35,012 bases of DNA, taken from contig CAKZPB010000013.1 of NCBI GenBank assembly GCA_937138395.1, forward strand, positions 1 to 35,012, in the 5' to 3' direction. This document shows positions 21,013 through 33,898 of the stretch, one piece after another; the first letter of the stretch is position 1, and every line of letters begins with the position of its first letter. The stretch is from an uncultured Pseudomonadota bacterium. Its GTDB lineage: Bacteria > Pseudomonadota > Gammaproteobacteria > Xanthomonadales > Wenzhouxiangellaceae. Below the pieces are notes generated by a model. It was given only the letters and a program-made list of their open reading frames with translations. It made no database searches and was not told the DNA's origin. Position numbers and translations under genes: made by a program.

Positions 21013-21383
21013 GTTCACAAGCTGGATCGTTGAGAAGCCCTTTGGTTGATCTACAGGCCTGATTTCAACTGAATTGAACCCCTCATGACTACTGGCTGGC
21101 AGCAGGCGATGGTCAGCCGATGAGCCAGCCCAAAATCCAGCGCGCAGGCAGTGCGCTTCGCTGGCGGATTGGAGCCGTGCACTGAGCGAATGCTCTGCAC
21201 CAAGCGGGTCCTTCGGCAAGCAGCGTCGCCAAGCGCGCAGTCCATCGTGCTCTTCGCCAGCCGAGTCCGGATCGTTGCGCTGGTCGATATACACCTCATT
21301 ATTACCTTCGCGGGTTCATCGGGTGATCAGGCCCTTGAAGAAACCGATGCTGGGCTTCAGTTTCGACGATTGTCATATTTTTG
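21013..21383. other. Intergenic region before the TonB operon
   Basis: About 370 nt with ORFs of 82 to 108 codons on the minus strand and 97 on the plus strand. None has a ribosome binding site or a family I recognise, and the translations change character along their length, so I take them as chance ORFs or decayed sequence. The operator-like repeat at 21384 begins the promoter region of the operon. Confidence 0.5.
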
Positions 21384-21406
21384 TCATATCAGGGTCACTG
21401 ATATGA
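21384..21406. promoter_or_regulatory. Inverted repeat, candidate operator of the TonB operon
   Basis: The arms TCATATCAG (21384-21392) and CTGATATGA (21398-21406) are a perfect 9-bp inverted repeat with a 5-nt spacer, 77 nt upstream of the first operon gene. The left half is preceded by a direct repeat TTGTCATAT (21370, 21381), so several binding sites may overlap the promoter. It does not match the Fur box consensus. The binding protein is unknown. Confidence 0.5.
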
Positions 21407-21482
21407 AACCTCCCGGCACTAGATTTCGATACCTCGGAAAGTGATTTCTAGCAGGCCCTGCCCGCAACGTTTTGGAGGTTTC

Positions 21483-22271
21483 ATGTCGATTCATTTAAGC
21501 CGGGCGGGCTTTGCAGCCACCCTGGTCATCGCCCTGTTCGGATCTGCACCGGTTCCGGCTCAAGCTCAGGATTCACTGGAGGCACTCGGCCAGGAACTGG
21601 TACGAATGCGCGGAGAAGTCGAATCATTGAACGCGGAGCTGACCCGTATTCAAGAGCAGCATCGGGCCGAAATGAGTTCACTGTCCGCGCAGAAGGGAGA
21701 CCTGGAAGCGACTCGCCGTCGCGAAGACCTCCGGATCCGTCAGCTCGAGCAGGACCTCGCTGATAATCGCGAACGTGCCGAAGCGGCGGGTGTTGCCGGC
21801 GAATCACTGATCCCGGTCGCCGCCGACGCCATTACCCAGCTTGAACTGCACATTCAGCGCGGTTTGCCGTTCAAGGTCGACGAGCGCTTGGATGCACTGG
21901 CAGAAATTCGGAATCAGCTGGAATCCGGGGCGCTGGCGCCGCCACGGGTGATCAACCGGCTTTGGAGTTTCTACGAGGATGAGCTTCGGTTGACCCGAGA
22001 AAACGCGCTGTATAGCCAGATCATTCCTCTGGCCGGTGATCGCGTGCTGGCCGACGTTGCCAAGATTGGCACTGTAGCAATGTATTTCCAAACGCGTGAC
22101 GGACGCGTGGGCTTGACCGAGCGAAGCGGCATTGACTGGCAATTTGTCGAGGTTGATGGGCGCGAAGATCAGCAACAGATCGAAATACTGTTTGACTCAC
22201 TGCAAAAGCAGATCCGAACCGGGTTTTTTGAGGTTCCCAACGGCAGCATCCAGTTGGAGGCAGGCTCATGA
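21483..22271 (+). CDS. DUF3450 periplasmic coiled-coil protein of TonB operon
   Basis: A 262-residue exported protein. The signal peptide ends at about residue 29 (PVPAQAQDS). A coiled coil at about 30-95 (SLEALGQELVRMRGEVESLN, later DLEATRRREDLRIRQLEQDL) precedes a conserved globular part with LHIQRGLPFKVDERLDAL, RLWSFYEDELRLTREN and a C-terminal EILFDSLQKQIRTGFFEVP. This is the DUF3450 pattern. DUF3450 genes occur just upstream of TtpC/ExbB/ExbD/TonB sets in Vibrio, Shewanella and relatives; a periplasmic helper of the motor is the common guess. GGAGG is placed four nt before the ATG. Its stop overlaps the next start (ATGA). First gene of the operon. Confidence 0.88.
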   Translation: MSIHLSRAGFAATLVIALFGSAPVPAQAQDSLEALGQELVRMRGEVESLNAELTRIQEQHRAEMSSLSAQKGDLEATRRREDLRIRQLEQDLADNRERAEAAGVAGESLIPVAADAITQLELHIQRGLPFKVDERLDALAEIRNQLESGALAPPRVINRLWSFYEDELRLTRENALYSQIIPLAGDRVLADVAKIGTVAMYFQTRDGRVGLTERSGIDWQFVEVDGREDQQQIEILFDSLQKQIRTGFFEVPNGSIQLEAGS

Positions 22272-23734
22272 CTGGTTTTAGCCGCCCGACGGACTACTTC
22301 AGGGTCCTGTTGCTTGTGCTGTTGGCTGCAGGGCTGTTGTTTTCCCAAGTGCTGATGGCGCAGGACGAAAATGCCCAGGCCACGACTGCCGAGTCGGAGA
22401 CCGCTGCAAGTGAAGCCGTCGTCGAGGAAACCGAACCACTTTCACCTGTCCAGCAGCAGCCCTCGCTGGAGCAGGCCTATCAGCGTGAATTTGCTTTCCT
22501 GCAAAGTCAGCGACGCGACCTGCAGCAGCGCCTGAACGACCTGGAGGCGCGCATGCAGCAGGAAAAGGCCGGCCTGCAGTCGGAAATCCAAACGCTGGAG
22601 CGCGACGTGGTGGCCATGGGCGGACGGGCGGATCGACTGGATGATCTGGTGTTCGAGTCCGAGCTATCAGTTGACCGGGCCCGTGAAAACACCGACTTGC
22701 TGGCGTCGACGTTCATGCAGGCCGATTTTACGCTCGAAGATTCCTGGGAAAACGAGCTGGGGTCGGAAGCACCCGGCGCCGATGATGTCGCCTCGCTGTT
22801 TGCAGCCGCTCGTCAATTCCTGGCTGAATCCAGCCGGGTCCGGCGTGAGCCGGGAGAATTCTTTCTCAGTGACGGTGCCCGCGTCAGCGGCGACATCATC
22901 CGAGTCGGCAGCATCGCGGCCTACGGCATCAGCGATCGCGGCACGGGCGCACTGGCGCCGGCTGGTGATCAGGACCTGAAGCTCTGGAATGTCGACGCCG
23001 AACAGGCCGCGCGTGAAGTAGCCACCGGTGCCATGCCGGACCAACTACCCATCTTCATTTATGAATCGCTGACCAACGAAATCGAAACCAAGGCTGCAAA
23101 AGGCATGTTCGATGTGATCAGCAGCGGTGGTGTCATTGGCTGGATCATTTTCGGGCTCGGCGTGTTGGGATTGATTCTGGTCAGCCTGCGCGCCATCTTC
23201 CTGCAGCAGGCCAGCTCTTCCACCGATCGCGTGATGGATTCGGTCTCGGCGCACGTGCGGCGGGGTGATCGCCAGGCCGCACTGGATGTGCTGAAGAAGA
23301 AAAAAGGCTCCACATCCCGGGTGATGTCAGCGGCGATTCGAAACCTCGACCGAGACCGTGAGCATCTGGAAGACATCGTTTCTGAATCGATTCTTCACGA
23401 GAGCAGTCACTTGAACCGATTTGGCGCATTCATTCTGGTCATCGCTGCGGTATCGCCCTTGCTTGGGCTGCTCGGCACCGTGACCGGCATGATTTCGACG
23501 TTTGATGTGATCACTGAATTTGGCACGGGCGATCCGAAGCTGCTGTCGGGCGGAATCTCGATTGCCCTGGTCACGACCGAGCTGGGTCTGATCGTGGCGA
23601 TCCCGTTGTTGCTGTTGGGCAATCTGCTGTCCGGCTGGGCCGAAGGCATCAAAGACAATATGGAAAAAGCCACGCTGCGCATCATCAACCAATATTCGGC
23701 CGGTCAATCGGGCGCTGAGGCCGAACTTACCTGA
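22268..23734 (+). CDS. TtpC-like MotA/TolQ/ExbB proton channel protein with periplasmic domain
   Basis: A 488-residue inner-membrane protein. A signal sequence (about 11-31) leads to a long periplasmic region with a coiled coil at about 65-150 and a small domain at about 170-280. The MotA/TolQ/ExbB channel domain follows, with helices at about 289-310, 385-405 and 430-456 and the conserved SPLLGLLGTVTGMISTF (396-412). This arrangement is that of TtpC, an extra ExbB-like subunit needed by TonB2-type systems in Vibrio. It likely works with the next three genes to pass proton-motive force to TonB. Its ATG overlaps the DUF3450 stop and the exbB ATG follows its own stop by two nt, so translation is coupled. 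Confidence 0.9.
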   Translation: MTGFSRPTDYFRVLLLVLLAAGLLFSQVLMAQDENAQATTAESETAASEAVVEETEPLSPVQQQPSLEQAYQREFAFLQSQRRDLQQRLNDLEARMQQEKAGLQSEIQTLERDVVAMGGRADRLDDLVFESELSVDRARENTDLLASTFMQADFTLEDSWENELGSEAPGADDVASLFAAARQFLAESSRVRREPGEFFLSDGARVSGDIIRVGSIAAYGISDRGTGALAPAGDQDLKLWNVDAEQAAREVATGAMPDQLPIFIYESLTNEIETKAAKGMFDVISSGGVIGWIIFGLGVLGLILVSLRAIFLQQASSSTDRVMDSVSAHVRRGDRQAALDVLKKKKGSTSRVMSAAIRNLDRDREHLEDIVSESILHESSHLNRFGAFILVIAAVSPLLGLLGTVTGMISTFDVITEFGTGDPKLLSGGISIALVTTELGLIVAIPLLLLGNLLSGWAEGIKDNMEKATLRIINQYSAGQSGAEAELT

Positions 23735-23736
23735 CC

Positions 23737-24348
23737 ATGTTCAATGCACTGATCGACGACCTGATGCTGTATTTCCAGATGGGCGGCTACGTTATGCCGC
23801 CGCTGGTACTGGGTACAGTCGTACTGTGGTTTGCCATTGGCTACCGTTTTGCAGCCCTGCGGCGCGGGACCAAGCGCAGCGTTCGAGCGCTGCTGGATAA
23901 GCATCAGGGTGGCTTCAAGCATGAGCCGCGCGGCCTGATCGAATATGCGGTTTCGCGCGGTCTTGAACTCGAACAGCAACATCCAGCTGATCTACGGCAC
24001 TGGCTGGATGACGCGTTCAATGATCTCGAAAATTCAACCAAACGCTACCACCGTTTGATCCTGACGATCGTGACTGTAGCGCCACTGCTGGGGCTGCTTG
24101 GCACGGTATCCGGCATGATCGAGACCTTCGATTCACTGGGAGACATGTCGCTGTTTGCTCAATCGGGTGGCATTGCCGGCGGTATCTCCCAGGCCTTGTT
24201 CACCACGCAGATGGGCCTGGCAGTGGCCATCCCGGGTCTGATTGTCGGTGGCTTGCTCGACAAGAAGGCATTTGTACTCAGGCATGAAATGGCACAGGTC
24301 AAGGATCTCCTGTGCGCCCGAATTCAACAGCCGGAGGCAACGACATGA
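23737..24348 (+). CDS. exbB: ExbB-like biopolymer transport protein
   Basis: A 203-residue inner-membrane channel subunit (MotA/TolQ/ExbB family) with the short TonB2-type architecture. The first helix is near 18-36, then a cytoplasmic domain, then a helix with the family motif APLLGLLGTVSGMIETFDSL (about 113-132), and a third with TTQMGLAVAIPGLIVGGLLD. It forms the proton path with ExbD and energises TonB. Most ExbB proteins of the E. coli type are longer (about 244) with a signal-like N-terminus. The stop overlaps the exbD start (ATGA). Confidence 0.93.
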   Translation: MFNALIDDLMLYFQMGGYVMPPLVLGTVVLWFAIGYRFAALRRGTKRSVRALLDKHQGGFKHEPRGLIEYAVSRGLELEQQHPADLRHWLDDAFNDLENSTKRYHRLILTIVTVAPLLGLLGTVSGMIETFDSLGDMSLFAQSGGIAGGISQALFTTQMGLAVAIPGLIVGGLLDKKAFVLRHEMAQVKDLLCARIQQPEATT

Positions 24349-24755
24349 GATTCCGTGAACGCAGCGATGCCGAGCAACGCATCGACATCTCGCCATTGAT
24401 CGACATGGTGTTCATCCTGCTGATCTTTTTCATGGTCTCGACCACGTTCGTCAAGGACATGAAGCTGGAGCTGGATCGTCCGACTGCATCGTCGGCTGCG
24501 CCTGCGTCCACGCAGGCCATTCGGCTGTATATCGACAATGCCGGTGATACTTATTTGGACGGTCAACCGATCCGGGTCTGGGTGATTCAGAGCCGCTTGC
24601 GTGACCTCTTGTCCGGATCGGGCCAGGAATCCGTACTGGTTGTGACCGACGATCAGGTACCGGCCGGACGTCTGGTGGAAGTGGTTGACCAGGCCCGCCG
24701 CGCAGGTGCCCAGGACGTCGGCGTGGCCACCGTAGACGAGGCTGGAGCCGGCTAG
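24345..24755 (+). CDS. exbD: ExbD-like biopolymer transport protein
   Basis: A 136-residue protein with a short cytoplasmic N-terminus, one membrane helix containing the essential Asp (ISPLIDMVFILLIFFMVSTT, D20, equivalent to D25 of E. coli ExbD) and a periplasmic domain of about 90 residues (TYLDGQPIRVWVIQSRL, later VVDQARRAGAQDVGVAT). It is the ExbB partner in the proton-driven motor. The start at 24345 overlaps the exbB stop and has GGAGG eight nt upstream. A 40-nt gap to tonB is the widest among the motor genes. Confidence 0.95.
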   Translation: MRFRERSDAEQRIDISPLIDMVFILLIFFMVSTTFVKDMKLELDRPTASSAAPASTQAIRLYIDNAGDTYLDGQPIRVWVIQSRLRDLLSGSGQESVLVVTDDQVPAGRLVEVVDQARRAGAQDVGVATVDEAGAG

Positions 24756-24795
24756 CGCCGAACGCGCCGAGACAAGCAAGAATCAAGGAGTAGTT

Positions 24796-25440
24796 ATGAA
24801 TATCGAACAAAGCCATCGACCCATTCGTCTGGTATCCGGCGTGGCCTTCATGCTGCTGGGCTCAGTCACTGTTATCGGTACGCTGCTGATGATCAACAAC
24901 CTGGCCAAAGGGCCGGATGACGTCGAAACAACGACATCAACTTCGTTTGCGGTCGAGAAGAAGGTTGAGCCACCGCCACCGCGTGTCCGTCCGCGAACCC
25001 CGCCGCGTCAGCAACGCGCACGCCCGACGGCACCGCCGATGGTCAGCCTGGATACCAACCTTTCAGGCATCGACTTCGGTATTCCAGGCCTGACGGCGTC
25101 TGATCTGGGCGATATGAAAAATGAGCTACTTGGTGATACCGATAATGTCGTCATGACCGACGATTCGGTCGATTCACCGCCGCGGCCGACGTTTCAGGCA
25201 CCGGTGGCCTATCCTCGAACGGCGCGCGCCCAGGGCGTTCAGGGCTATGTTGTGCTGTCGCTATTGATCAGCGCCGCCGGTGAAATTGAAAAAGTCCAGG
25301 TGCTGGAAGCCGAGCCGGCCGGCATTTTTGAACAGGCTGCCCAGGAAGGCGTCCGAAATTGGCGTTTCGAGCCGGCACAATATCAGGGTCGCAACGTCAA
25401 GGTCTGGGCCAAGCAGCGCATTCGCTTCGATTTGACCTGA
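24796..25440 (+). CDS. tonB: TonB energy-transducing protein
   Basis: A 214-residue protein anchored by one N-terminal helix (about 13-34). A Pro/Arg-rich periplasmic linker (EPPPPRVRPRTPPRQQRARP) is followed by a C-terminal TonB domain: FQAPVAYPRTARAQGVQGYV, then SLLISAAGEIEKVQVLEAEP, then NWRFEPAQYQGRNVKV. It spans the periplasm and contacts TonB-dependent receptors; the receptor two genes downstream is the likely partner. The length is that of TonB2-type proteins, shorter than the E. coli TonB (239). Start has AAGGAG seven nt upstream. Confidence 0.95.
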   Translation: MNIEQSHRPIRLVSGVAFMLLGSVTVIGTLLMINNLAKGPDDVETTTSTSFAVEKKVEPPPPRVRPRTPPRQQRARPTAPPMVSLDTNLSGIDFGIPGLTASDLGDMKNELLGDTDNVVMTDDSVDSPPRPTFQAPVAYPRTARAQGVQGYVVLSLLISAAGEIEKVQVLEAEPAGIFEQAAQEGVRNWRFEPAQYQGRNVKVWAKQRIRFDLT

Positions 25441-25464
25441 TCACACGTCCAGCTATTCGTCGAC

Positions 25465-26631
25465 ATGGATTCCATAGCCGTAAAACCGGTGCTGCTGGGC
25501 TTGCTTTTGCTGCTGTGCGGCGCAACGGGTCTGACCTTCGCTGAGGAACCGGAAGACGACCTCGAATACCTGTCGCTGGCGGCCCTGCTGATCGGTGATG
25601 GCAACTACGAACGTGCGCAACAAGCACTGGCCAGTGTCGACACGGACGATGAAACCGTCGATCTGATCCGCTATCACACGTTGTCCGGGCTGGTTGCGCT
25701 GAACCTGAACGAACTGCCAAGGGCTGTGTCCGAATTCGAAGCCGCGATCGACGCTGGCCAGACTGAACCGATTGTCTGGTTGTATCTGGCCCAGGCCCAT
25801 TTCGGTCAACAGCAGTATCAGGAAACCTTGAGCGCACTCGACCAGGCCGGCGAACAGGCCACACAACTGCCGTCTGTGTACATGATGCGGTCCCAGGCGC
25901 ACTGGGAACTGGGAGACTATGAGAGTGCCTGGCAGGTGTTGGGTCAGGGCCGCTTGCAGTTCCCGGACCGGGCCGGTGATTTTGCCCGTCGCCAGGTATT
26001 TTTACTGGTCGATCAAGGCCTGTATCAGGCAGCTGCGGAGCAGGGTCGAATGTTTCTCGAAACCCAGCAGGCCGATACCGATGATGCGATTGCTATCGGC
26101 AATGCGCTACGTCAGAGCGGGCAATACGACGAGGCCGCGCGTATTCTGGAAATGGCCCGTCTCGAAGCATTGGACAACACTACGCTGGCTCAGGTGCTAT
26201 CGCATACCTATCTGGACCAGAACATGCTGTTGCCGGCAGCCGATGTCATGAATCAGGCCTCGGCATTCGATCCGGGGCTGGTTGCCGAGGCAGCAGAACT
26301 CTACCGTCGCGCAGGCTGGTTGATGCAGGCGCTGACCCTGAATGGTCAGGTCATCGATCAGGAACGCAAGTTCAAGCAGCGCTTGGCGATATTCATCGAA
26401 ATGGGCCGATTTGATCAGGCAGCCGGCATGCACAATGATCTGGCCAGGGTCGGACTCCTGAACGACGAGGATATCCGCTATGCGCTGGCCTTTGCCTACT
26501 TCCGGATCGGTAACTTCGAGGCTTCCGAGGCGCAGCTGGTCCAGTTGACGCGAGCGGACCTGTTCCGCAAAGCCACTGAACTTCGTCGCGTCATGGAGCA
26601 GTGTGCAGAGGAGCCCTGGTTGTGCGCATGA
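25465..26631 (+). CDS. Exported TPR-repeat protein of TonB operon
   Basis: A 388-residue protein with a signal peptide (about 1-26, ending LTFAEEP). Several TPR helical repeats fill the rest: YERAQQALASVDTDDETVDL, TEPIVWLYLAQAHFGQQQYQ, SVYMMRSQAHWELGDYESAW, NALRQSGQYDEAARILEMAR, and a last one near EDIRYALAFAYFRIGNFEAS. TPR proteins follow tonB in the TtpC-type systems of Vibrio and relatives and are thought to bind or stabilise TonB or the receptor; no direct biochemical role can be read here. It starts 24 nt after tonB, and its stop overlaps the receptor start (ATGA). Confidence 0.9.
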   Translation: MDSIAVKPVLLGLLLLLCGATGLTFAEEPEDDLEYLSLAALLIGDGNYERAQQALASVDTDDETVDLIRYHTLSGLVALNLNELPRAVSEFEAAIDAGQTEPIVWLYLAQAHFGQQQYQETLSALDQAGEQATQLPSVYMMRSQAHWELGDYESAWQVLGQGRLQFPDRAGDFARRQVFLLVDQGLYQAAAEQGRMFLETQQADTDDAIAIGNALRQSGQYDEAARILEMARLEALDNTTLAQVLSHTYLDQNMLLPAADVMNQASAFDPGLVAEAAELYRRAGWLMQALTLNGQVIDQERKFKQRLAIFIEMGRFDQAAGMHNDLARVGLLNDEDIRYALAFAYFRIGNFEASEAQLVQLTRADLFRKATELRRVMEQCAEEPWLCA

Positions 26632-29600
26632 ATCTGCCGCTGTCCGGGCTAAGGACCTGTCCAGCCTGTGCAATCGTGCCGGTGTTCTGTTTCATGCTCT
26701 GCAGCATGTCGCTGGCCCAGGTCATCAATGAGGGCGAATCCGATGCTGTCCCAACGGCCGCTGCAGCTGAACTGCCTGCCCAACTGACCATCCTGGTCTT
26801 CGAGGACGGTCGTCCGCAATCCGACCTGATCATCCGGCTCGACGACCTGGTCGGACGCACCGACGAAAACGGCACCTGGATGGATGAGGTGGCTCCGGGT
26901 CCGGCACGACTCACCCTGTTTGATGCGGCGCAGCCGCTGACCGCACTTTCACTGGATTTCAGCGCGGGTGAAATCGCTCAAATCATTGTGACGTTGACCG
27001 GGCCGCAACGACGCGCTCAAGTCAGCATTGAAAGCTCCCATTCGGTTGAAGGCAATGTGCCGGAGCTGCCAACGGCGGCCAGTGAAGCCGAGGGTAGTGG
27101 TGTACTGGCAGGACAGGTGGTGTCGAGTGAAGACGGCGAACCCATCGTTGGCGCGCGGCTGTTTGTTTCCGGAACACCGGTCGAAGCGCGTACTGATGAT
27201 GCGGGCAACTACCGGATCGAGCTGCCCGCCGGTGAATACTCGGTTTCGGTGCTGCACAGTGAATTTGCCACTCGCACGATTGATTCGGTGGGTGTTGAAA
27301 AGGATCAACAGACCGCACGCGACTTCGAGCTGCCGCCTGCCGGACTCGAGCTGGCCGAGTTTGTCGTTGTCGAACCGTTTATCGAGGGCAGCCTGACCGC
27401 GGTTGCAGCGCTCCGTCGTGAATCCACAGCCGTAACGGACGTGATCAGCGCTGAGCAGATTTCACGTGCCGGCGATGGCGATGTGGGTTCGGCATTGAAG
27501 CGCGTCACCGGGCTGACCCTGGTTGGCGGCGAGTTTGTCTATGTGCGCGGTCTGGGCGAGCGGTACTCCAGCGTGTTGCTGAATGGCGCAAATCTGCCCA
27601 GCCCGGACCCGACCCGTCGCGTACTGCCGATGGGGTTGTTCCCGACCGATATCATCAGCCAGATCGTGGTGCAGAAAACGTCCGACGCCTCGATGCCGGG
27701 TACGTTTGGTGGCGGTACCGTGCAGATGGCAACGCTGGGCTTTCCGGAAGAGTTTCTGTTCAACGTCAGTTTGAGCACGGCCTACAACAGCGAATCGACC
27801 TGGCAGGATGGTCTGACCTACGATGGCGGCGGTCGGGACTGGACCGGCTACGATGATGGCATCCGGTCAGTGCCACCGCTGTTGAACGATGTGATTGGAG
27901 ACGGTACGTTTCTGCGCTTGCGCAATCGCTTCAATCCGGAAGGCGTCGAACCTGAAGAGCTGGAGGCTATCAGCGAGGAACTGGCGCTGCTGACCGATTA
28001 CAACAGCAGTGAAAAGGAGCTGCCGGCCGACCGCGGGTTTGGTATTTCGATCGGCAACTCATTGCAATTGAACCCGGACATCAGCACCGGTTTCCTGGCT
28101 TCGATTCAGTACGGCGACCAATGGCGTCAGCGCAATGAAGCACGGAATGATTATGCGGCCACCTCGGCCGGGCTCGAACTGAGAAATGATTTTCTGGTTG
28201 CCCGAACGCTGCGTAATATCGATTTCAGTGCCTTTTTGAATACCGGTATCGAATTTGGTGACTGGACCAGCCTGGGCTTGAACCTGATGCTGCTGCGTCA
28301 GTCTGAAGACGAAGTCGAAATTCAGGATGGCCGTCAGGAAGCGCAACGCTTCCAGCGCATACAGCATGAATGGACGGAAAATGAACTACTGACCCTTCAG
28401 TTGTTGGGCGAGCACAAGGTGCCGTGGACCAACACCGAAATCAACTGGCAATTCTCCGAGGGCAAGGCAACGCGAGATGACCCCAACGTTGTCGAATTTC
28501 GTCGTGATGACGGTGACGGTGACGGGGTATTCACGTTCTCGAGGCGCGGCGACAGTAATTCGCAGTTCTGGGCTACGGTGGATGACGACTTGTCCGACTG
28601 GTCGGTTCAAATCAAGCAGCCACTGCCCGAGTGGGGTCCAGTCGCGTTCACTCCCAGCGTTGGTGCAGGTGAAACGATACGGGATCGTATTGCTGGTCGG
28701 CGAAGCTTCAGTTTTCTCGGCCCGGTTGCGGGTGGCGATGATGAATTGTCACAAAACGATTTGCTGACCCCTGACTTTATCGGCGAAGGGGGGTTGCTGC
28801 TGCGCGAGGACACTCAGGCTACGGACAATTTTACGGCCGAGCAGGAACTGACGACCCTGTTTGCCATGCTCGAGACCAACATTTTCGACAAGGTACAAAT
28901 CGTGGCCGGGATCCGGTTTGAAGACAATTTCCAGCAGATTGTTACCGATAATCTGAGCAGCCCGACAGCGCCGCCGTTGATCTCGGAAATTGACGAGCAG
29001 GACGAACTGCTGTCGGGTTCGATCACCTGGCAAACGACCGAGGATATTCAGCTTCGATTCGGCTACTCCGAAACGCTTTCGCGGCCCGATCTCCGCGAAA
29101 TTTCACCGGCCCCGTTCGTCGATCCGATTCTTGACTTACGGACGGTCGGCAACCCAGACCTGCTGGTGACTTCCATCGAAAACGTCGATGCACGAATCGA
29201 ATACTACTTCAATGAAACCGACAGCATCTCGTTTGCCTACTTCACCAAGGACTTGACCAATCCGATCGAAAAAACCGTATCAGCCGGTGCTTCCGGTACG
29301 ACCATTTTCCTGCGGAATGCACTGGGCGCTGACGTTGAAGGATGGGAGATCGACTTTTATCGCGGCCTTGGGTTTGTCAATGAGTGGGACTGGCTGGACT
29401 CGATTCATATGGGCTGGGTTCGCTCGATTGGTCTGGAGAATTTTTACCTGGCTGCCAACTATGCCGACATTTCAACCAGCGTTGATCTGGACCCGGATGC
29501 CGGTAATCAGACCAATCTGAATCGCGCGCTCGAAGGTGCATCGCCCTGGGTTATCAATGCGCAGCTGGGGTACACCAGCGCGAACGACGGGTTGGAATGG

Positions 29601-29849
29601 ACGCTGCTGTACAACAGCTTTGGTGAGCGTATTTCACGGGCTGGTGCCCTGGGCCAGCCAGATATCTTTGAAGAGCCGTTCGCGCAGATGGATTTCGTTG
29701 CACGCTATAAGTTCAAGGATTACTGGTCCGTCAAACTCGAGCTTGAAAATATTCTTGATTCCGAAGTCGAATTTACCCAGGGCGGCCTCCCTACACGTAC
29801 CTTCAAGCCCGGGGTAACCATTGGTCTCGGGCTTCAATTCGCGCTGTAA
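26628..29849 (+). CDS. TonB-dependent outer-membrane receptor
   Basis: A 1073-residue outer-membrane transporter. A signal peptide lies at about 1-31. Two Ig-like carboxypeptidase-regulatory-type domains follow, a diverged one at about 52-125 and a clear one at about 158-238 (GQVVSSEDGEPIVGARLFVS, AGNYRIELPAGEYSV). EFVVVEPF (244-251) may be the TonB box. The plug has DVGSALKRVTGLTLVGGEFV, VYVRGLGERYSSVLLNGANL and SDASMPGTFGGGTVQM. The beta barrel runs to the end (GVTIGLGLQFAL). It is longer than siderophore receptors (about 700-800) and resembles SusC-like or Caulobacter-type receptors for larger substrates; the substrate is unknown. Start overlaps the TPR gene stop, so it belongs to the motor operon. 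Confidence 0.95.
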   Translation: MNLPLSGLRTCPACAIVPVFCFMLCSMSLAQVINEGESDAVPTAAAAELPAQLTILVFEDGRPQSDLIIRLDDLVGRTDENGTWMDEVAPGPARLTLFDAAQPLTALSLDFSAGEIAQIIVTLTGPQRRAQVSIESSHSVEGNVPELPTAASEAEGSGVLAGQVVSSEDGEPIVGARLFVSGTPVEARTDDAGNYRIELPAGEYSVSVLHSEFATRTIDSVGVEKDQQTARDFELPPAGLELAEFVVVEPFIEGSLTAVAALRRESTAVTDVISAEQISRAGDGDVGSALKRVTGLTLVGGEFVYVRGLGERYSSVLLNGANLPSPDPTRRVLPMGLFPTDIISQIVVQKTSDASMPGTFGGGTVQMATLGFPEEFLFNVSLSTAYNSESTWQDGLTYDGGGRDWTGYDDGIRSVPPLLNDVIGDGTFLRLRNRFNPEGVEPEELEAISEELALLTDYNSSEKELPADRGFGISIGNSLQLNPDISTGFLASIQYGDQWRQRNEARNDYAATSAGLELRNDFLVARTLRNIDFSAFLNTGIEFGDWTSLGLNLMLLRQSEDEVEIQDGRQEAQRFQRIQHEWTENELLTLQLLGEHKVPWTNTEINWQFSEGKATRDDPNVVEFRRDDGDGDGVFTFSRRGDSNSQFWATVDDDLSDWSVQIKQPLPEWGPVAFTPSVGAGETIRDRIAGRRSFSFLGPVAGGDDELSQNDLLTPDFIGEGGLLLREDTQATDNFTAEQELTTLFAMLETNIFDKVQIVAGIRFEDNFQQIVTDNLSSPTAPPLISEIDEQDELLSGSITWQTTEDIQLRFGYSETLSRPDLREISPAPFVDPILDLRTVGNPDLLVTSIENVDARIEYYFNETDSISFAYFTKDLTNPIEKTVSAGASGTTIFLRNALGADVEGWEIDFYRGLGFVNEWDWLDSIHMGWVRSIGLENFYLAANYADISTSVDLDPDAGNQTNLNRALEGASPWVINAQLGYTSANDGLEWTLLYNSFGERISRAGALGQPDIFEEPFAQMDFVARYKFKDYWSVKLELENILDSEVEFTQGGLPTRTFKPGVTIGLGLQFAL

Positions 29850-29897
29850 ACTCCACCGCATCAGTATTGACTGAAAAGAAACTGTAACCAACCTGAT

Positions 29898-29983
29898 AAG
29901 GAGTAGTCATATTGGTCGACTACTGTATCTCCTTCAACGTTCTTGTTGATCGTTTCATTACGCATATCTAAAGTTCAGGAGAT
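29898..29983 (+). promoter_or_regulatory. Leader with competing Shine-Dalgarno pairings
   Basis: ATCTCCTT at 29927-29934 can pair in two exclusive ways. One is with the upstream AAGGAG (29898-29903), helped by TAGTC/GACTA (29904-29908, 29918-29922). The other is with AGGAGAT at 29977-29983, which is the ribosome binding site of the next gene. The second pairing would hide the site; the first would free it. Seen by eye; not folded. Confidence 0.35.
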
Positions 29984-29990
29984 TCTCCCA

Positions 29991-31787
29991 ATGTTTAGAA
30001 AACCTTTAGTTGTCGGGCTTGCCATGGCTGGCGCGCTCGCATTTAATTCTGCTTCAGGCGCCATGAAGCCAGGTGAATACCTGGATGGCTTGTGGTTCAG
30101 CCCGACCGAATCTGGTCGGGGTATTTCGGTCGATTTCATTCCGTTTGCCGAGGGTGGCGGTGAAATTTTCGGTGCTGTTTTCAGCTACAACGATACCGGT
30201 GAAAACCAGTGGGTCACACTGCAGGCGGGTATCGAAGAGCATGAGTTCACAGGCAGCGGCAATATTTTCCTAAATACCGGCGGCACTTTCGGCTTTCCTT
30301 TCACACCGCCCCAGCAAGTTGATATTGGTGATATCACCGTCACACTGAACAATTGTGCTTCGGTTGAATTCGACCTGGACATCGTCGCTGAGGGCACGGG
30401 CTACGAGGACGTCGTACTGGATCTGATTCCGTTGTCTGGCGCAGGCTCAGCTCAATGCGTATATGAACAGTCGTTTTCGGGCTGCCCTGATTTCGCGACT
30501 GACACCGGTGGTGGTTTACGCGAATGCCTGATCAGCGGCCAGATTCTGGATCAAGACATTACGCTGACCAATGATATTACCTGGGTGCTGGACGGCCTGC
30601 TCGAAATCGGTGCCCCGAACGAGAGTTCGTCAACGCTGACCGTCGAGCCAGGTACGGTCATTACGTCGGTGCCGGGCACGAATAACACGTTTATCTATGT
30701 GCATGCCGGGTCGGAAATTCAGGCCAACGGCCTGCCGTACGCGCCGATTGTCTGGACCAGCGCCGATGATGGTTTCGGCACAGCGCGGGCGCCGCAGCCG
30801 GGTGATACCGGTGGTCTGGCCGTCGCAGGTCTGGCCCCGTGCAACAGTGCACCAGGTGTTGAGCTGGGCTGCTTCTCCGAGTTTGCCAGCGCCGGCCAGG
30901 TACTGCCCTATGGCGGAACTGACGAAAATGACAGCAGCGGTTCGATCACCTACATGCAGATCCGCTACGCCGGTATCGTGGTGGGCGTCGATGCTGAGGT
31001 CAACACCTTCTCGATGCTGGGTGTCGGTCGCGGTACTCGAATCGAATACATCCAGGCCTACCGTTCGCTGGACGATGGGTTCGAAGCGTTTGGCGGCAAC
31101 GTGAACGTCAAGTACTACACGGCAGTAGACGGCCTGGATGACTACTTCGACTGGGACGAGGGTTGGTCGGGTCAGGCCCAGTTCGGTCTGCTGGTGGTCA
31201 ACGATGAAGCCGGTTCCGGTGCAGGTTTCGAGGGCGCCAACAACGGCGATGGGTTCGACGCCTTGCCCCGAGCCACTCCGATCTTCTCGAACTACACGGT
31301 GGTGAGCCGAAACAACACCGCTGACGCTGCGTTCCTGCTCAAAGAGGGTACGGGCGCTCAGATCTGGAACTCGATTGGTGCCGGTTATGGCGGCCAATGT
31401 GTCCTGATTGAAGATCAGGCCACGATTACTGCGGCCGGACCTGCGGCGACTCCAACCGGGACCATTGCGTTTGCCGGAACGTTCGTCAATGACTGTGGAA
31501 CGTTGTTTGAATCACCGGATCAGCCTGGCTACGCCCAGGACTTGTTCAATTCACCGGCTTTCCTGGGCACGAACTCAACTGCGAATCCGATGCTGGATCC
31601 GGTGAGCTTGCAGCCGATGGATGGATCACCAGTCTTGAACAGTGCTGTGCCTGTATTTGATCTGGCCGAAGGACTGGGAAGCGATAACAACCAGTTCTTT
31701 ACGCCAACCAACTATAGCGGTGCTTTTGACCAGGGCGCACGCTGGATCGACGGTTGGACGTATGATCCATATGGTGTTCAGAACTGA
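29991..31787 (+). CDS. Secreted beta-helix-like protein, TonB-operon partner
   Basis: A 598-residue exported protein with a signal peptide (about 1-24, ending NSASGA). Residues 25-145 form a beta-rich domain with GLWFSPTESGRGISVDF, a motif seen in exported proteins of Xanthomonadales and Wenzhouxiangella. After a Cys-containing linker, residues 160-598 resemble right-handed beta-helix proteins: ITWVLDGLLEIGAPNESSST, LTVEPGTVITSVPGTNNTFI, EIQANGLPYAPIVWTSADDG, ITYMQIRYAGIVVG, RGTRIEYIQAYRSLDDGFEA. No catalytic residues are evident. A similar beta-helix family occurs beside TonB-dependent receptors in other bacteria, so a surface protein for substrate capture is plausible (inference). AGGAG is 9 nt upstream. 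It lies 141 nt after the receptor and ends at a strong terminator. Confidence 0.85.
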   Translation: MFRKPLVVGLAMAGALAFNSASGAMKPGEYLDGLWFSPTESGRGISVDFIPFAEGGGEIFGAVFSYNDTGENQWVTLQAGIEEHEFTGSGNIFLNTGGTFGFPFTPPQQVDIGDITVTLNNCASVEFDLDIVAEGTGYEDVVLDLIPLSGAGSAQCVYEQSFSGCPDFATDTGGGLRECLISGQILDQDITLTNDITWVLDGLLEIGAPNESSSTLTVEPGTVITSVPGTNNTFIYVHAGSEIQANGLPYAPIVWTSADDGFGTARAPQPGDTGGLAVAGLAPCNSAPGVELGCFSEFASAGQVLPYGGTDENDSSGSITYMQIRYAGIVVGVDAEVNTFSMLGVGRGTRIEYIQAYRSLDDGFEAFGGNVNVKYYTAVDGLDDYFDWDEGWSGQAQFGLLVVNDEAGSGAGFEGANNGDGFDALPRATPIFSNYTVVSRNNTADAAFLLKEGTGAQIWNSIGAGYGGQCVLIEDQATITAAGPAATPTGTIAFAGTFVNDCGTLFESPDQPGYAQDLFNSPAFLGTNSTANPMLDPVSLQPMDGSPVLNSAVPVFDLAEGLGSDNNQFFTPTNYSGAFDQGARWIDGWTYDPYGVQN

Positions 31788-31828
31788 TCCATTCGGTTTG
31801 GTTTGAAACCGTATCAAGCAATACCCCA

Positions 31829-31859
31829 AGGCGCTGACTTCGGTCAGCGCCTTTTTTTT
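31829..31859 (+). terminator. Intrinsic terminator of the TonB/beta-helix block
   Basis: A perfect 10-bp stem (AGGCGCTGAC 31829-31838, GTCAGCGCCT 31843-31852) capped by a TTCG tetraloop runs into eight Ts. It lies 41 nt after the beta-helix protein stop. This is the strongest terminator in the window. Confidence 0.95.
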
Positions 31860-32064: not shown

Positions 32065-32868
32065 TCAGGGGTTGCCTGGTCCGGCAATGGCAAATACCGT
32101 TTGCTGCTCATCCTGGATCACACGGATATTGCACTGATACAGCTCGCTAAGCATGGTCTCGTTCAACAGTTCGCCGGCCTTGCCAGCCCGCCAGCGGCCA
32201 TTGCCGAACAGCATCAGAACATGCGTGCAATAGCAGGTTGCAAGGTTGATATCATGCAGCGCCATGAACTGCGCGCGCGCGCTGTTCTTTACTCTGCGCC
32301 ACAAGCAATTCAGGATCTCCAGTTGATGTGCGGGATCCAAATGGTTGGTTGGCTCATCGAGCAGTAACACATCCGGATTCTGGGTCAATACCGTTGCAAG
32401 CGCCAACCGGCGTTGCTCACCGCCCGAGAGTTGCGTGCAGGAACGAGCCGACAGATGGGCCAGGCCCAGTTGTTCGAGCGCGGCACGGGCCTGCATTCGA
32501 TCGCCTTCAGTTTCCCCGGACCAGCTGCCCAGATGGGGGTGTCGTCCACTCAGGGCCGTCTCCAGGCAGTCAGCGTCAAACGCAAAGCGGGTATTTTGAG
32601 TCAGCATGCCCAGCTTTTTTGCAATGGCCTTGCGCGTCATGCGATCCATGGGCTGGTCATTCAAGCGGATCGTGCCCTGGTCGGCAGAACGTATTCCGGC
32701 CAGCGTGCTCAGCAGCGTGGTCTTGCCAACGCCATTGGGTCCGAGCAATCCCCAGGATTGACCGGGCCACAACGCTAACTGCAGGCGATCGACCACATGG
32801 CAGGCGTCAATTGAAACCGCAAGATCGGTTACATGCAGCAGTGGAGACGGTTGACTACTGTTGCTCAT
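32065..32868 (-). CDS. FecE/BtuD-type ABC transporter ATP-binding protein
   Basis: A 267-residue ATPase of the iron-siderophore/heme/vitamin B12 importer class. It has Walker A GPNGVGKT (43-50), Q-loop Q91 (LGMLTQNTRF), signature QLSGGEQRR (146-154), Walker B VLLLDEPTNHLD (167-178) and a switch histidine in ALHDINLA. It pairs with the FecCD permease upstream, whose stop overlaps this start (ATGA), and drives import through it. The substrate is not identifiable: no binding protein and no TonB receptor gene lies beside it. Confidence 0.93.
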   Translation of the reverse strand: MSNSSQPSPLLHVTDLAVSIDACHVVDRLQLALWPGQSWGLLGPNGVGKTTLLSTLAGIRSADQGTIRLNDQPMDRMTRKAIAKKLGMLTQNTRFAFDADCLETALSGRHPHLGSWSGETEGDRMQARAALEQLGLAHLSARSCTQLSGGEQRRLALATVLTQNPDVLLLDEPTNHLDPAHQLEILNCLWRRVKNSARAQFMALHDINLATCYCTHVLMLFGNGRWRAGKAGELLNETMLSELYQCNIRVIQDEQQTVFAIAGPGNP

Positions 32869-33830
32869 GCGACATGACGTCCGGATCGGTACAGCAGGAT
32901 CAGGAAAAGAACGACGCCAATGATCGCGGTGACAACGCCAACCGGTAACTGTCTTGGGCTCAACACCGTCCGGGCCAGGGTATCGGCCAGCACCAGAAAG
33001 GATGCGCCGAACAAGGCTGAGGCAGGGATCAACCAGCGATGGTCATTGCTGATGATCAACCGCACAAGATGAGGCACGACCAGGCCGACAAAGCCAATGC
33101 TGCCTGCAATCGAAACCGCCAATGCAGTCAACAATGAAGCTACAAGATAGAGCTCGAGGTGGCGACGCTGGGTATTTTCTCCAAGTAACGCGGCCTGTGT
33201 TTCACCCGCTGTCATGATGTTCAGGCTGCGACCTCGCAATGCAAGTATTAGCGTGACGCCCAGCATCGGTAGCAGCCACCAGGCCGATAATCCGGCGTAG
33301 CTCAGGTCGCCCATCAGCCAATACAGCATGCCACGCAGGCTTCGGTCCGGTCCGAGCGCCAACAGCAGCGTGATGATGGCACCCCAGCCAGCCGCGATGA
33401 CCACACCGGTCAGCAGCATCCTGAGTGAGGACCATGGCCCCGGTCCACGGCCCAATACAAATACAATCGCCATGGAAATACAAGCGCCGCAAAAGGCCAG
33501 TAAGGGCACCGGCAGCCAGGCAAGACCCAACAGGAACCCGGTCAACACGAACGCGCTGGCGCCCCCCGAAACGCCGAGCACATACGGGTCGGCTAGAGGA
33601 TTTCTCAGCAACACCTGCATCAGTGCCCCGGCGATGGCCAGCAATCCGCCAGTGATCGCTGCAGCCACGGCACGCGGCCAGCGCAACTCGAATACGATCG
33701 TGTGATGCGCCGGGTCCAGCGGCCAAAGCCAACCGCTGCTGCCGAAGGCGAGTGAGAACAACAGGCTAGACCCCAGCAAAATCGCCAGAGCGAGTAAAAA
33801 CCAGCTGCGATAGGCGCCGGGAATCGGCAT
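32865..33830 (-). CDS. FecCD/BtuC-type ABC transporter permease
   Basis: A 321-residue inner-membrane permease with about ten helices and the family motifs RNPLADPYVLGVSGGASAF (about 74-92) and GLVVPHLVRLIIS near the C-terminus, together with GSIGFVGL. It forms the channel for iron-siderophore, heme or cobalamin import with the next ATPase. The first in-frame start is a TTG at 33833, directly followed by ATG at 33830; I use the ATG. The 120-nt gap to the divergent rppH gene holds no cobalamin riboswitch that I could see and no clear Fur box. Confidence 0.93.
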   Translation of the reverse strand: MPIPGAYRSWFLLALAILLGSSLLFSLAFGSSGWLWPLDPAHHTIVFELRWPRAVAAAITGGLLAIAGALMQVLLRNPLADPYVLGVSGGASAFVLTGFLLGLAWLPVPLLAFCGACISMAIVFVLGRGPGPWSSLRMLLTGVVIAAGWGAIITLLLALGPDRSLRGMLYWLMGDLSYAGLSAWWLLPMLGVTLILALRGRSLNIMTAGETQAALLGENTQRRHLELYLVASLLTALAVSIAGSIGFVGLVVPHLVRLIISNDHRWLIPASALFGASFLVLADTLARTVLSPRQLPVGVVTAIIGVVLFLILLYRSGRHVA

Positions 33831-33898
33831 CAAACCCGGGCTTTGTGGTGGCAGTATTGCGGTGAATTGATTACCATGGACGACAGTTACTTATTCAA

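Follow-up and report, generated by a model that had tools for sequence, protein, structure and literature searches.

Pairs of a low-phosphate TonB-dependent receptor and a secreted partner protein of the ElpS/FII type have been reported in Caulobacter and Flavobacterium, with substrate and mechanism left open (PMC2996285, PMC8115612; what is said here of published systems is limited to the available parts of the cited papers). The Caulobacter genes are laid out as cc0170 (elpS)-cc0171-gsp, and ElpS is induced at phosphate starvation (PMC2996285); several TonB receptors of Caulobacter are controlled by PhoB (PMC11208175). In Flavobacterium johnsoniae, the TonB-dependent transporter Fjoh_0545 and the protein FII (Fjoh_0546) are strongly induced at low phosphate (8.02 and 9.91 in the first table columns, read here as log2), and FI to FIII share 31-36% identity, at 50-54% coverage, with the Caulobacter lipoprotein (PMC8115612). 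Iron uptake by the TonB2 system of Vibrio vulnificus requires TtpB2, a DUF3450 protein, and TtpD2, a TPR protein, both of which are essential (PMC6957404). This report describes an eight-gene block in a 35,012-nucleotide stretch of DNA, called the window (contig CAKZPB010000013.1, positions 1 to 35,012 of the forward strand), from an uncultured bacterium of the Wenzhouxiangellaceae (assembly GCA_937138395.1; 2.84 Mb in 142 contigs). The block encodes a TonB2-type motor, a TonB-dependent receptor, and a predicted right-handed beta-helix protein, here named BHX. On sequence evidence, and with a probability of roughly three in four, it is a PhoB-controlled system that acquires phosphorus during phosphate starvation and is driven by its own motor.

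The block occupies positions 21483-31787, where the open reading frame list and a Pfam search give, in order, DUF3450, TtpC-like, ExbB, ExbD, TonB, TPR, receptor, and BHX genes. Together with the predicted regulatory signals, its features are as follows.

21370..21425, + strand: predicted motor-operon promoter of the Pho type; four half-sites of 7 bp with an 11-bp period (21370-21409), 10 nt, then the -10 element TAGATT at 21420-21425
21483..22271, + strand: DUF3450 protein, TtpB-like (PF11932, 95 bits)
22268..23734, + strand: N-terminally extended, TtpC-like channel protein, MotA/TolQ/ExbB type (PF01618; tree)
23737..24348, + strand: ExbB (PF01618)
24345..24755, + strand: ExbD (PF02472)
24796..25440, + strand: TonB (PF03544, TonB_C)
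25465..26631, + strand: TPR protein, TtpD-like (TPR_19)
26628..29849, + strand: TonB-dependent receptor of 1073 aa; plug and barrel preceded by two N-terminal domains (Pfam, predicted structure)
29871..29926, + strand: weaker second predicted Pho-type promoter, 5' of BHX; four half-sites at 29871-29910, 10 nt, then the -10 element TACTGT at 29921-29926
29991..31787, + strand: BHX, predicted secreted right-handed beta-helix protein of the ElpS/FII type, 598 aa, without a lipobox cysteine (AlphaFold model, fold alignment)
31828..31853, + strand: predicted intrinsic terminator; 11-pair stem, then a T-tract

Three ATGA overlaps link DUF3450 to TtpC (22268), ExbB to ExbD (24345), and the TPR gene to the receptor (26628). 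The site at 31828-31853 is the strongest of the terminator scan; the scan total, 17 terminator-like sites against 15.0 expected, is itself uninformative. The initial annotation of this DNA had described the same run, with the motor genes, TPR protein, and receptor joined by three ATGA overlaps and followed by a beta-helix gene and a terminator, and all eight genes are found where it placed them. Pho-type regulation is a layer absent from that description, although phosphate limitation was one of the growth conditions it suggested examining.

The motor promoter has the geometry of Pho-regulon boxes, with 7-bp direct repeats 11 bp apart that end 10 nt before the -10 element. Its score of 17.3 on a matrix trained on pstS promoters is reached by no shuffle, and the four half-sites of the BHX promoter lie in register, with 0.001-0.002 of shuffles scoring as high (the matrix-score shuffles preserve base content only). 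Pattern counts in the window genome alone are uninformative (31 matches with at most one mismatch versus 14 for the reversed pattern, and no clear Pho genes by eye in six flanks), so that a comparison across relatives was needed. The operon-head set comprises 30 promoters, from the window and 29 relatives; of the 31 relatives with a DUF3450 gene, L101 was dropped for its short upstream region and L111 for want of an assigned start. Pairs of GTCAY at 11-bp spacing occur in 16 of these 30 promoters, and pairs at any other spacing in at most two. As a positive control, 11 of 30 pstS promoters of relatives show the pair at 11 bp, and it recurs in only 9 of 411 other upstream regions, eight of which belong to BHX genes and the ninth to pstS.

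The matrix itself was trained on those 22 of 29 pstS sites that score at least 10/14 (L170, which runs off its contig, was excluded although it is among the 30 pstS promoters), and this selection makes it lean toward the E. coli-type consensus. At p < 0.05 it recovers 29/30 operon heads and 32/40 BHX genes, compared with 20/355 other genes; Fisher p-values ignore phylogeny. The six control genes (6/355) at p < 0.001 are phoB, pstS, the L111 DUF3450 gene missed by the exclusion list, two genes divergent from the block (L093, L097), and one unrelated gene. Of the promoters that pass this threshold, 26 of 29 at operon heads and 26 of 32 at BHX genes have the motif TANNNT 10, 21, or 32 nt after the best box, and none has it at 9, 20, or 31 nt. 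The initial annotation had raised independent transcription of the beta-helix gene as an objection to a joint unit. Promoter-like boxes of their own do precede most BHX genes, as the 32 of 40 indicate, but these boxes are of the same Pho type as the motor boxes, so that BHX and the operon look co-regulated. PhoB is probably the actual regulator of the block.

The phoB and pst genes of the window genome lie on another contig, C64. Two PhoB-family regulators above the TIGR02154 cut-off are encoded there (C64:17313-17990 and C64:76492-77181, 341 and 304 bits), and a second PhoB-family match of 280-301 bits is also present in five other genomes of the same family, four of them of the same genus. 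The genes divergent from the block in L093 (2766-3407, minus strand) and L097 (2777-3424, minus strand) are methyltransferase-like by eye and have strong Pho-type boxes in their own orientation (scores 19.5 and 18.1); this divergent gene may be another Pho target. Fur control was considered and rejected: the best Fur-consensus matches are 11/19 (p 0.50) upstream of the motor and 12/19 (p 0.19) upstream of BHX, and no Fur box was found upstream.

All eight genes occur together in 30 of the 39 stretches fetched from relatives, which makes the arrangement more than chance. Contig ends cut the block in three stretches (L087, L088, L104). Three others have receptor and BHX but no motor (L079, L098, and L084, in which there is one TonB match), and their genomes contain no block-type motor at all; in L081, L082, and L113 the stretch includes BHX but no receptor. 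In L088, L090, L091, L096, and L103, BHX is divergent from the motor operon rather than 3' of the receptor; there the BHX and DUF3450 promoters share one intergenic region and are therefore not independent. Within a set of 61 genomes, BHX and the receptor are each present in 39, and these are the same genomes; block-type TtpC occurs in 35 of them and nowhere else. The pairing of receptor and beta-helix protein that the initial annotation proposed thus holds, since homologous receptors in these 61 genomes are never without BHX, though the two genes are non-adjacent in a few genomes (apart in G055 and G050, on two contigs and at 62 kb; on different contigs in G007). A survey of 160 genomes of the window organism's order, at least 90% complete, found the motor in 51, BHX in 61, and both in 50 (motor and BHX counts are taken as from the same 160; the exception is G079). 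A dedicated TonB2-type unit, also proposed earlier, agrees with these distributions: the block-type motor is confined to receptor-bearing genomes (35/35 among the 61), and 50 of the 51 motor-bearing genomes of the survey carry BHX.

Linkage to phosphate genes accompanies this co-occurrence. In 10 of 38 BHX-bearing relatives, phoB or pstS is no more than about 20 kb from BHX (G008, G009, G012, G013, G015, G043, G044, G045, G051, and G053; the PhoB match of G044 is slightly below the model cut-off), and in G015 the block sits between phoBR and pstSCA. Outside the order, the best 80 of 541 BHX loci from named genomes were surveyed. A same-strand receptor is no further than 1.5 kb away in 61 of the 80, and nine more have one elsewhere in the locus (seven behind the motor, plus L220 and L248); none was found in the other ten, three of them on short or cut contigs (L192, L205, and L206). 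Nine of the 80 loci contain pst genes (L177, L179, L180, L190, L197, L204, L214, L221, and L235), and these nine span Pseudomonadota, Bacteroidota, Fibrobacterota, and Latescibacterota; PstS of L177 and L190 and PstC of L235 were confirmed. Some pho or pst match by blast thresholds is found in 14/80, where PhoB-only matches could be other regulators. The Salinimonas locus L204 reads phoB-phoR-pstS-BHX-receptor-motor, and Alteromonas abrolhosensis (L190) has the same order except that a single oxygenase gene separates pstS from BHX; its motor ends in a TPR gene. In Latescibacterota (L235) the order is receptor-BHX-pstCAB-phoU, with a gap of 27 nt from BHX to pstC. Type II secretion genes follow BHX and receptor in six of the 80 loci (L180, L185, L195, L203, L212, and L239; GspD and GspE of L180 confirmed).

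The Flavobacterium hibernum locus L250 encodes, in order, a phosphate porin (PF07396), a kinase, a PhoB-like regulator (217 bits with its best model, TIGR02154, whose cut-off is 296), a receptor, and a BHX relative of 393 aa (284 bits on the BHX profile). BHX thus has sequence relatives at the published gene layouts of both ElpS and FII. In five loci with BHX-like proteins (L210, L227, L240, L247, and L253), no receptor was found in the locus, and most of these proteins have a different N-terminus (LWQLK...HFNTLL), which the BHX start of L113 resembles. Distant BHX relatives are also carried by plasmid records, 12 of 21 of them in Pseudoalteromonas.

The motor of the block consists of six genes in V. 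vulnificus tonB2 order, DUF3450 first and TPR last. The initial annotation regarded the roles of the DUF3450 and TPR proteins as not established; for these two that statement needs revision, given the essential Vibrio counterparts TtpB2 and TtpD2 (PMC6957404). Two further TonB2-type clusters are present in the window genome, C3 and C77, and in the 17- and 19-kb stretches read around them neither receptor nor BHX was found, nor any Pho-type box (scores 5.5 and 1.2; the 95% level of the shuffles is 8.7). A tree of 29 TtpC proteins, built with 11 of 33 block rows and with Vibrio TtpC outside the set, unites the block-type TtpC with BHX-linked motors of Methylothermaceae, Myxococcota, and Planctomycetota in a supported group (99/99); the tree is midpoint-rooted, its inner forks are partly open, and ten rows have skewed composition. 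This group is separate from the C3 and C77 paralogues and also from the BHX-linked motors of Alteromonas, Salinimonas, Pseudoalteromonas, Aestuariibacter, and Tamilnaduibacter. Because the groups are separate within one tree, a motor seems to have joined the receptor-BHX pair at least twice, once as the block type and once as the Alteromonadales type.

The receptor is a canonical plug-and-barrel TonB-dependent transporter plus two extra N-terminal domains. Pfam recognizes CarboxypepD_reg (PF13620), plug (PF07715), and barrel (PF00593) domains; alignment of the plug and barrel, residues 252-1073, with the structures of BtuB, Fiu, and FecA gives Z 30-33. The extra domains cover approximately residues 51-136 and 157-235, the second being CarboxypepD_reg by Pfam. 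The earlier description of a very large receptor is correct as to length, yet much of the excess lies in the two N-terminal domains, the plug and barrel being ordinary; the possibly large substrate proposed from it gains no support from a fold that aligns to BtuB, Fiu, and FecA. One solved neighbour, BtuB1 with its lipoprotein BtuG1 (8blw), offers a helpful parallel, a receptor accompanied by a partner at the surface.

BHX has no match in Pfam or NCBIfam at E 0.1. Its AlphaFold model has a mean predicted local distance difference test score of 81.7, mostly 80-97 over residues ~161-590 (4 of 43 ten-residue blocks at 61-79), and residues ~165-590 are predicted to be a right-handed beta-helix that aligns to solved beta-helices over about 280 residues with Z up to 22.8 and a root-mean-square deviation of 3.3-3.9. 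The secreted, beta-helix-like protein of the initial annotation is in accord with this model. Its fold neighbours are alginate epimerases and NosD (Z up to 22.8), followed by PL6 lyases and polygalacturonases (Z ~18-20). An extra N-terminal beta domain (residues ~32-147) has weak lipocalin-like matches only, in the Foldseek PDB list and as part of the full-length model. Foldseek returned no match for BHX below E 0.001 in the PDB or viral library, and a sequence search of solved structures yielded only an antibody at E 0.29 with the single sequence and nothing at E 0.1 with the profile. In 30 aligned BHX sequences, D361, D362, and E365 and likewise D383, D384, and D387 are invariant; since the two acidic sets are 22 residues, or about one coil, apart in the model, they could form a metal or active site. 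Unlike a lipoprotein, BHX has no cysteine in its first 45 residues. Lipoprotein-like N-termini are found in relatives such as L190, L204, and L197, several of them from Bacteroidota and Alteromonadales. Two loci above the GspD cut-off encode type II secretins in the window genome, so type II secretion could carry BHX out.

Under the phosphorus-acquisition reading, scarcity of phosphate would lead PhoB to bind both Pho boxes and to switch on the motor-plus-receptor operon and the BHX gene. The six motor proteins would form a TonB2-type energy unit serving the receptor encoded behind them, while BHX, exported via its signal peptide, would proceed to the surface or the medium, where it may capture or cleave a phosphorus-bearing molecule. 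The receptor would then pull the product through the outer membrane, phosphate would be freed in the periplasm, and PstSCAB would take it inward. Inward transport, a surface location, and a catalytic or binding role for BHX are all probable elements of this scheme, and the substrate is presumed to be an organic phosphate or a phosphorylated polymer rather than an iron chelate.

Several observations weigh against this reading. The two-half-site score of the window BHX promoter is not significant (p 0.069), 8 of 40 BHX promoters fail at p < 0.05, and the box of the window genome's own pstS is degenerate (best 9/14). On the reverse strand, a stricter pattern still finds 4 of 30 operon-head promoters at spacing 11 (divergent genes not separated out). 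Other OmpR-family regulators bind repeats of a similar kind. No phosphatase or nuclease gene was recognized inside the block by the Pfam search. Finally, the Caulobacter receptor gene cc0171 beside elpS was constitutive by reverse transcription PCR, according to data that its authors did not show (PMC2996285).

Three other explanations have to be weighed. The one that survives best, though it is unlikely, is TonB-driven export, in which receptor and motor would move BHX out of the cell, in the manner of Oar and PopC in Myxococcus, with uptake a secondary function or lacking. The exceptionless co-occurrence of receptor and BHX in the 61 genomes fits this proposal, as do the missing lipobox of BHX and the Oar-type N-terminal domain (PF13620) of the receptor, an architecture described in PMC6434023. 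That architecture, however, characterizes 28% of all TonB-dependent transporters (PMC6434023) and is therefore weak evidence for Oar-type export; moreover, the lipobox-like N-termini of several Bacteroidota and Alteromonadales relatives suggest other surface routes, the window genome has type II secretins of its own, and the pst linkage favours import. If export were true, the route reported for ElpS as independent of type II secretion would be named, and outward TonB transport would be a widespread part of the Pho response.

Glycan uptake is less probable again. Here the beta-helix would be a pectate-lyase-like enzyme, the receptor would import oligosaccharides, and Pho control would reflect scavenging of plant or algal wall material. 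The alginate epimerases, PL6 lyases, and polygalacturonases among the fold neighbours of BHX point this way, and plant-wall binding or hydrolysis has been proposed for FI and FII by Lidbury and colleagues (PMC8115612). The beta-helix is nevertheless a common scaffold, Foldseek gave no match at its E 0.001 threshold, and the Pfam search recognized no carbohydrate enzyme in the block; if the glycan is phosphorylated, this explanation overlaps in part with phosphorus acquisition. Least probable of all is a Vibrio-like iron or siderophore TonB2 system with an accessory protein, which is favoured by the six motor genes in exact Vibrio order, DUF3450 first and TPR last, and opposed by the absence of a Fur box upstream where Pho boxes are present and conserved, by linkage to phoB/pst, and by the separation of the block TtpC from the genome's other TonB2-type motors in the tree.

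Two observations elsewhere in the window may be added. Genes for an ABC transporter (ABC_tran ATPase and FecCD permease) at 32065-33833, on the minus strand, converge on the block. At 1131-1521 a segment of about 190 bases is present twice, the copies being staggered; the direct repeats are 53-62 nt long and 79-92% alike, and no clear gene was recognized there.

If the block is a phosphorus-acquisition system, it couples a low-phosphate receptor and its partner to a motor of the TonB2 type, which in Vibrio works for iron, and this suggests that some bacteria may devote a separate energy unit to outer-membrane phosphorus uptake. The BHX family, spread over several phyla, gains a testable role despite scant Pfam coverage (0 of 7 members above the model cut-off, and at least 28 of a set of 30 members without a match at E 0.01). 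No paper tying a TonB2-type motor to the Pho response was among the matches listed, and subscription journals were mostly outside the search, so that absence is unproven.

Compared with described systems, the block shares its six motor genes and their order with the V. vulnificus TonB2 operon (ttpB2-ttpC2-exbB2-exbD2-tonB2-ttpD2; PMC6957404). The Vibrio operon is described as having six genes, a Fur site, and control by iron (PMC6957404), whereas the block has Pho boxes, a receptor, and BHX, and its TtpC stands apart from the generic TonB2-type motors sampled in a tree outside which the Vibrio sequence lies. Like the BHX pair, Caulobacter crescentus ElpS (CC0170) and the receptor CC0171 place a low-phosphate secreted protein beside a TonB-dependent receptor (PMC2996285). 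ElpS, however, is a lipoprotein, and no motor is named for it in the available text (PMC2996285), while BHX has no lipobox and carries an extra N-terminal beta domain; the two are matched by layout, not by direct sequence. PUSIV of F. johnsoniae (phoBR, Fjoh_0542-0546) likewise sets a receptor and a pectin-lyase-fold protein beside phoBR, a layout shared by the F. hibernum BHX relative, but names no motor genes, ExbB and ExbD being absent from the main text (PMC8115612). FII is annotated as a lipoprotein (PMC8115612), BHX is longer than its F. hibernum relative of 393 aa, and FII too is matched by layout rather than direct sequence. Myxococcus xanthus Oar and PopC pair a CarboxypepD_reg receptor with a secreted protein, as the block does, but Oar is needed for export of a protease, and no phosphate link is described in the available text (PMC6434023). 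Each part has precedents; what appears new, among the papers listed in the literature searched, is their union, in which a distinct TonB2-type motor is coupled with a receptor under probable Pho control and a protein of the ElpS/FII type.

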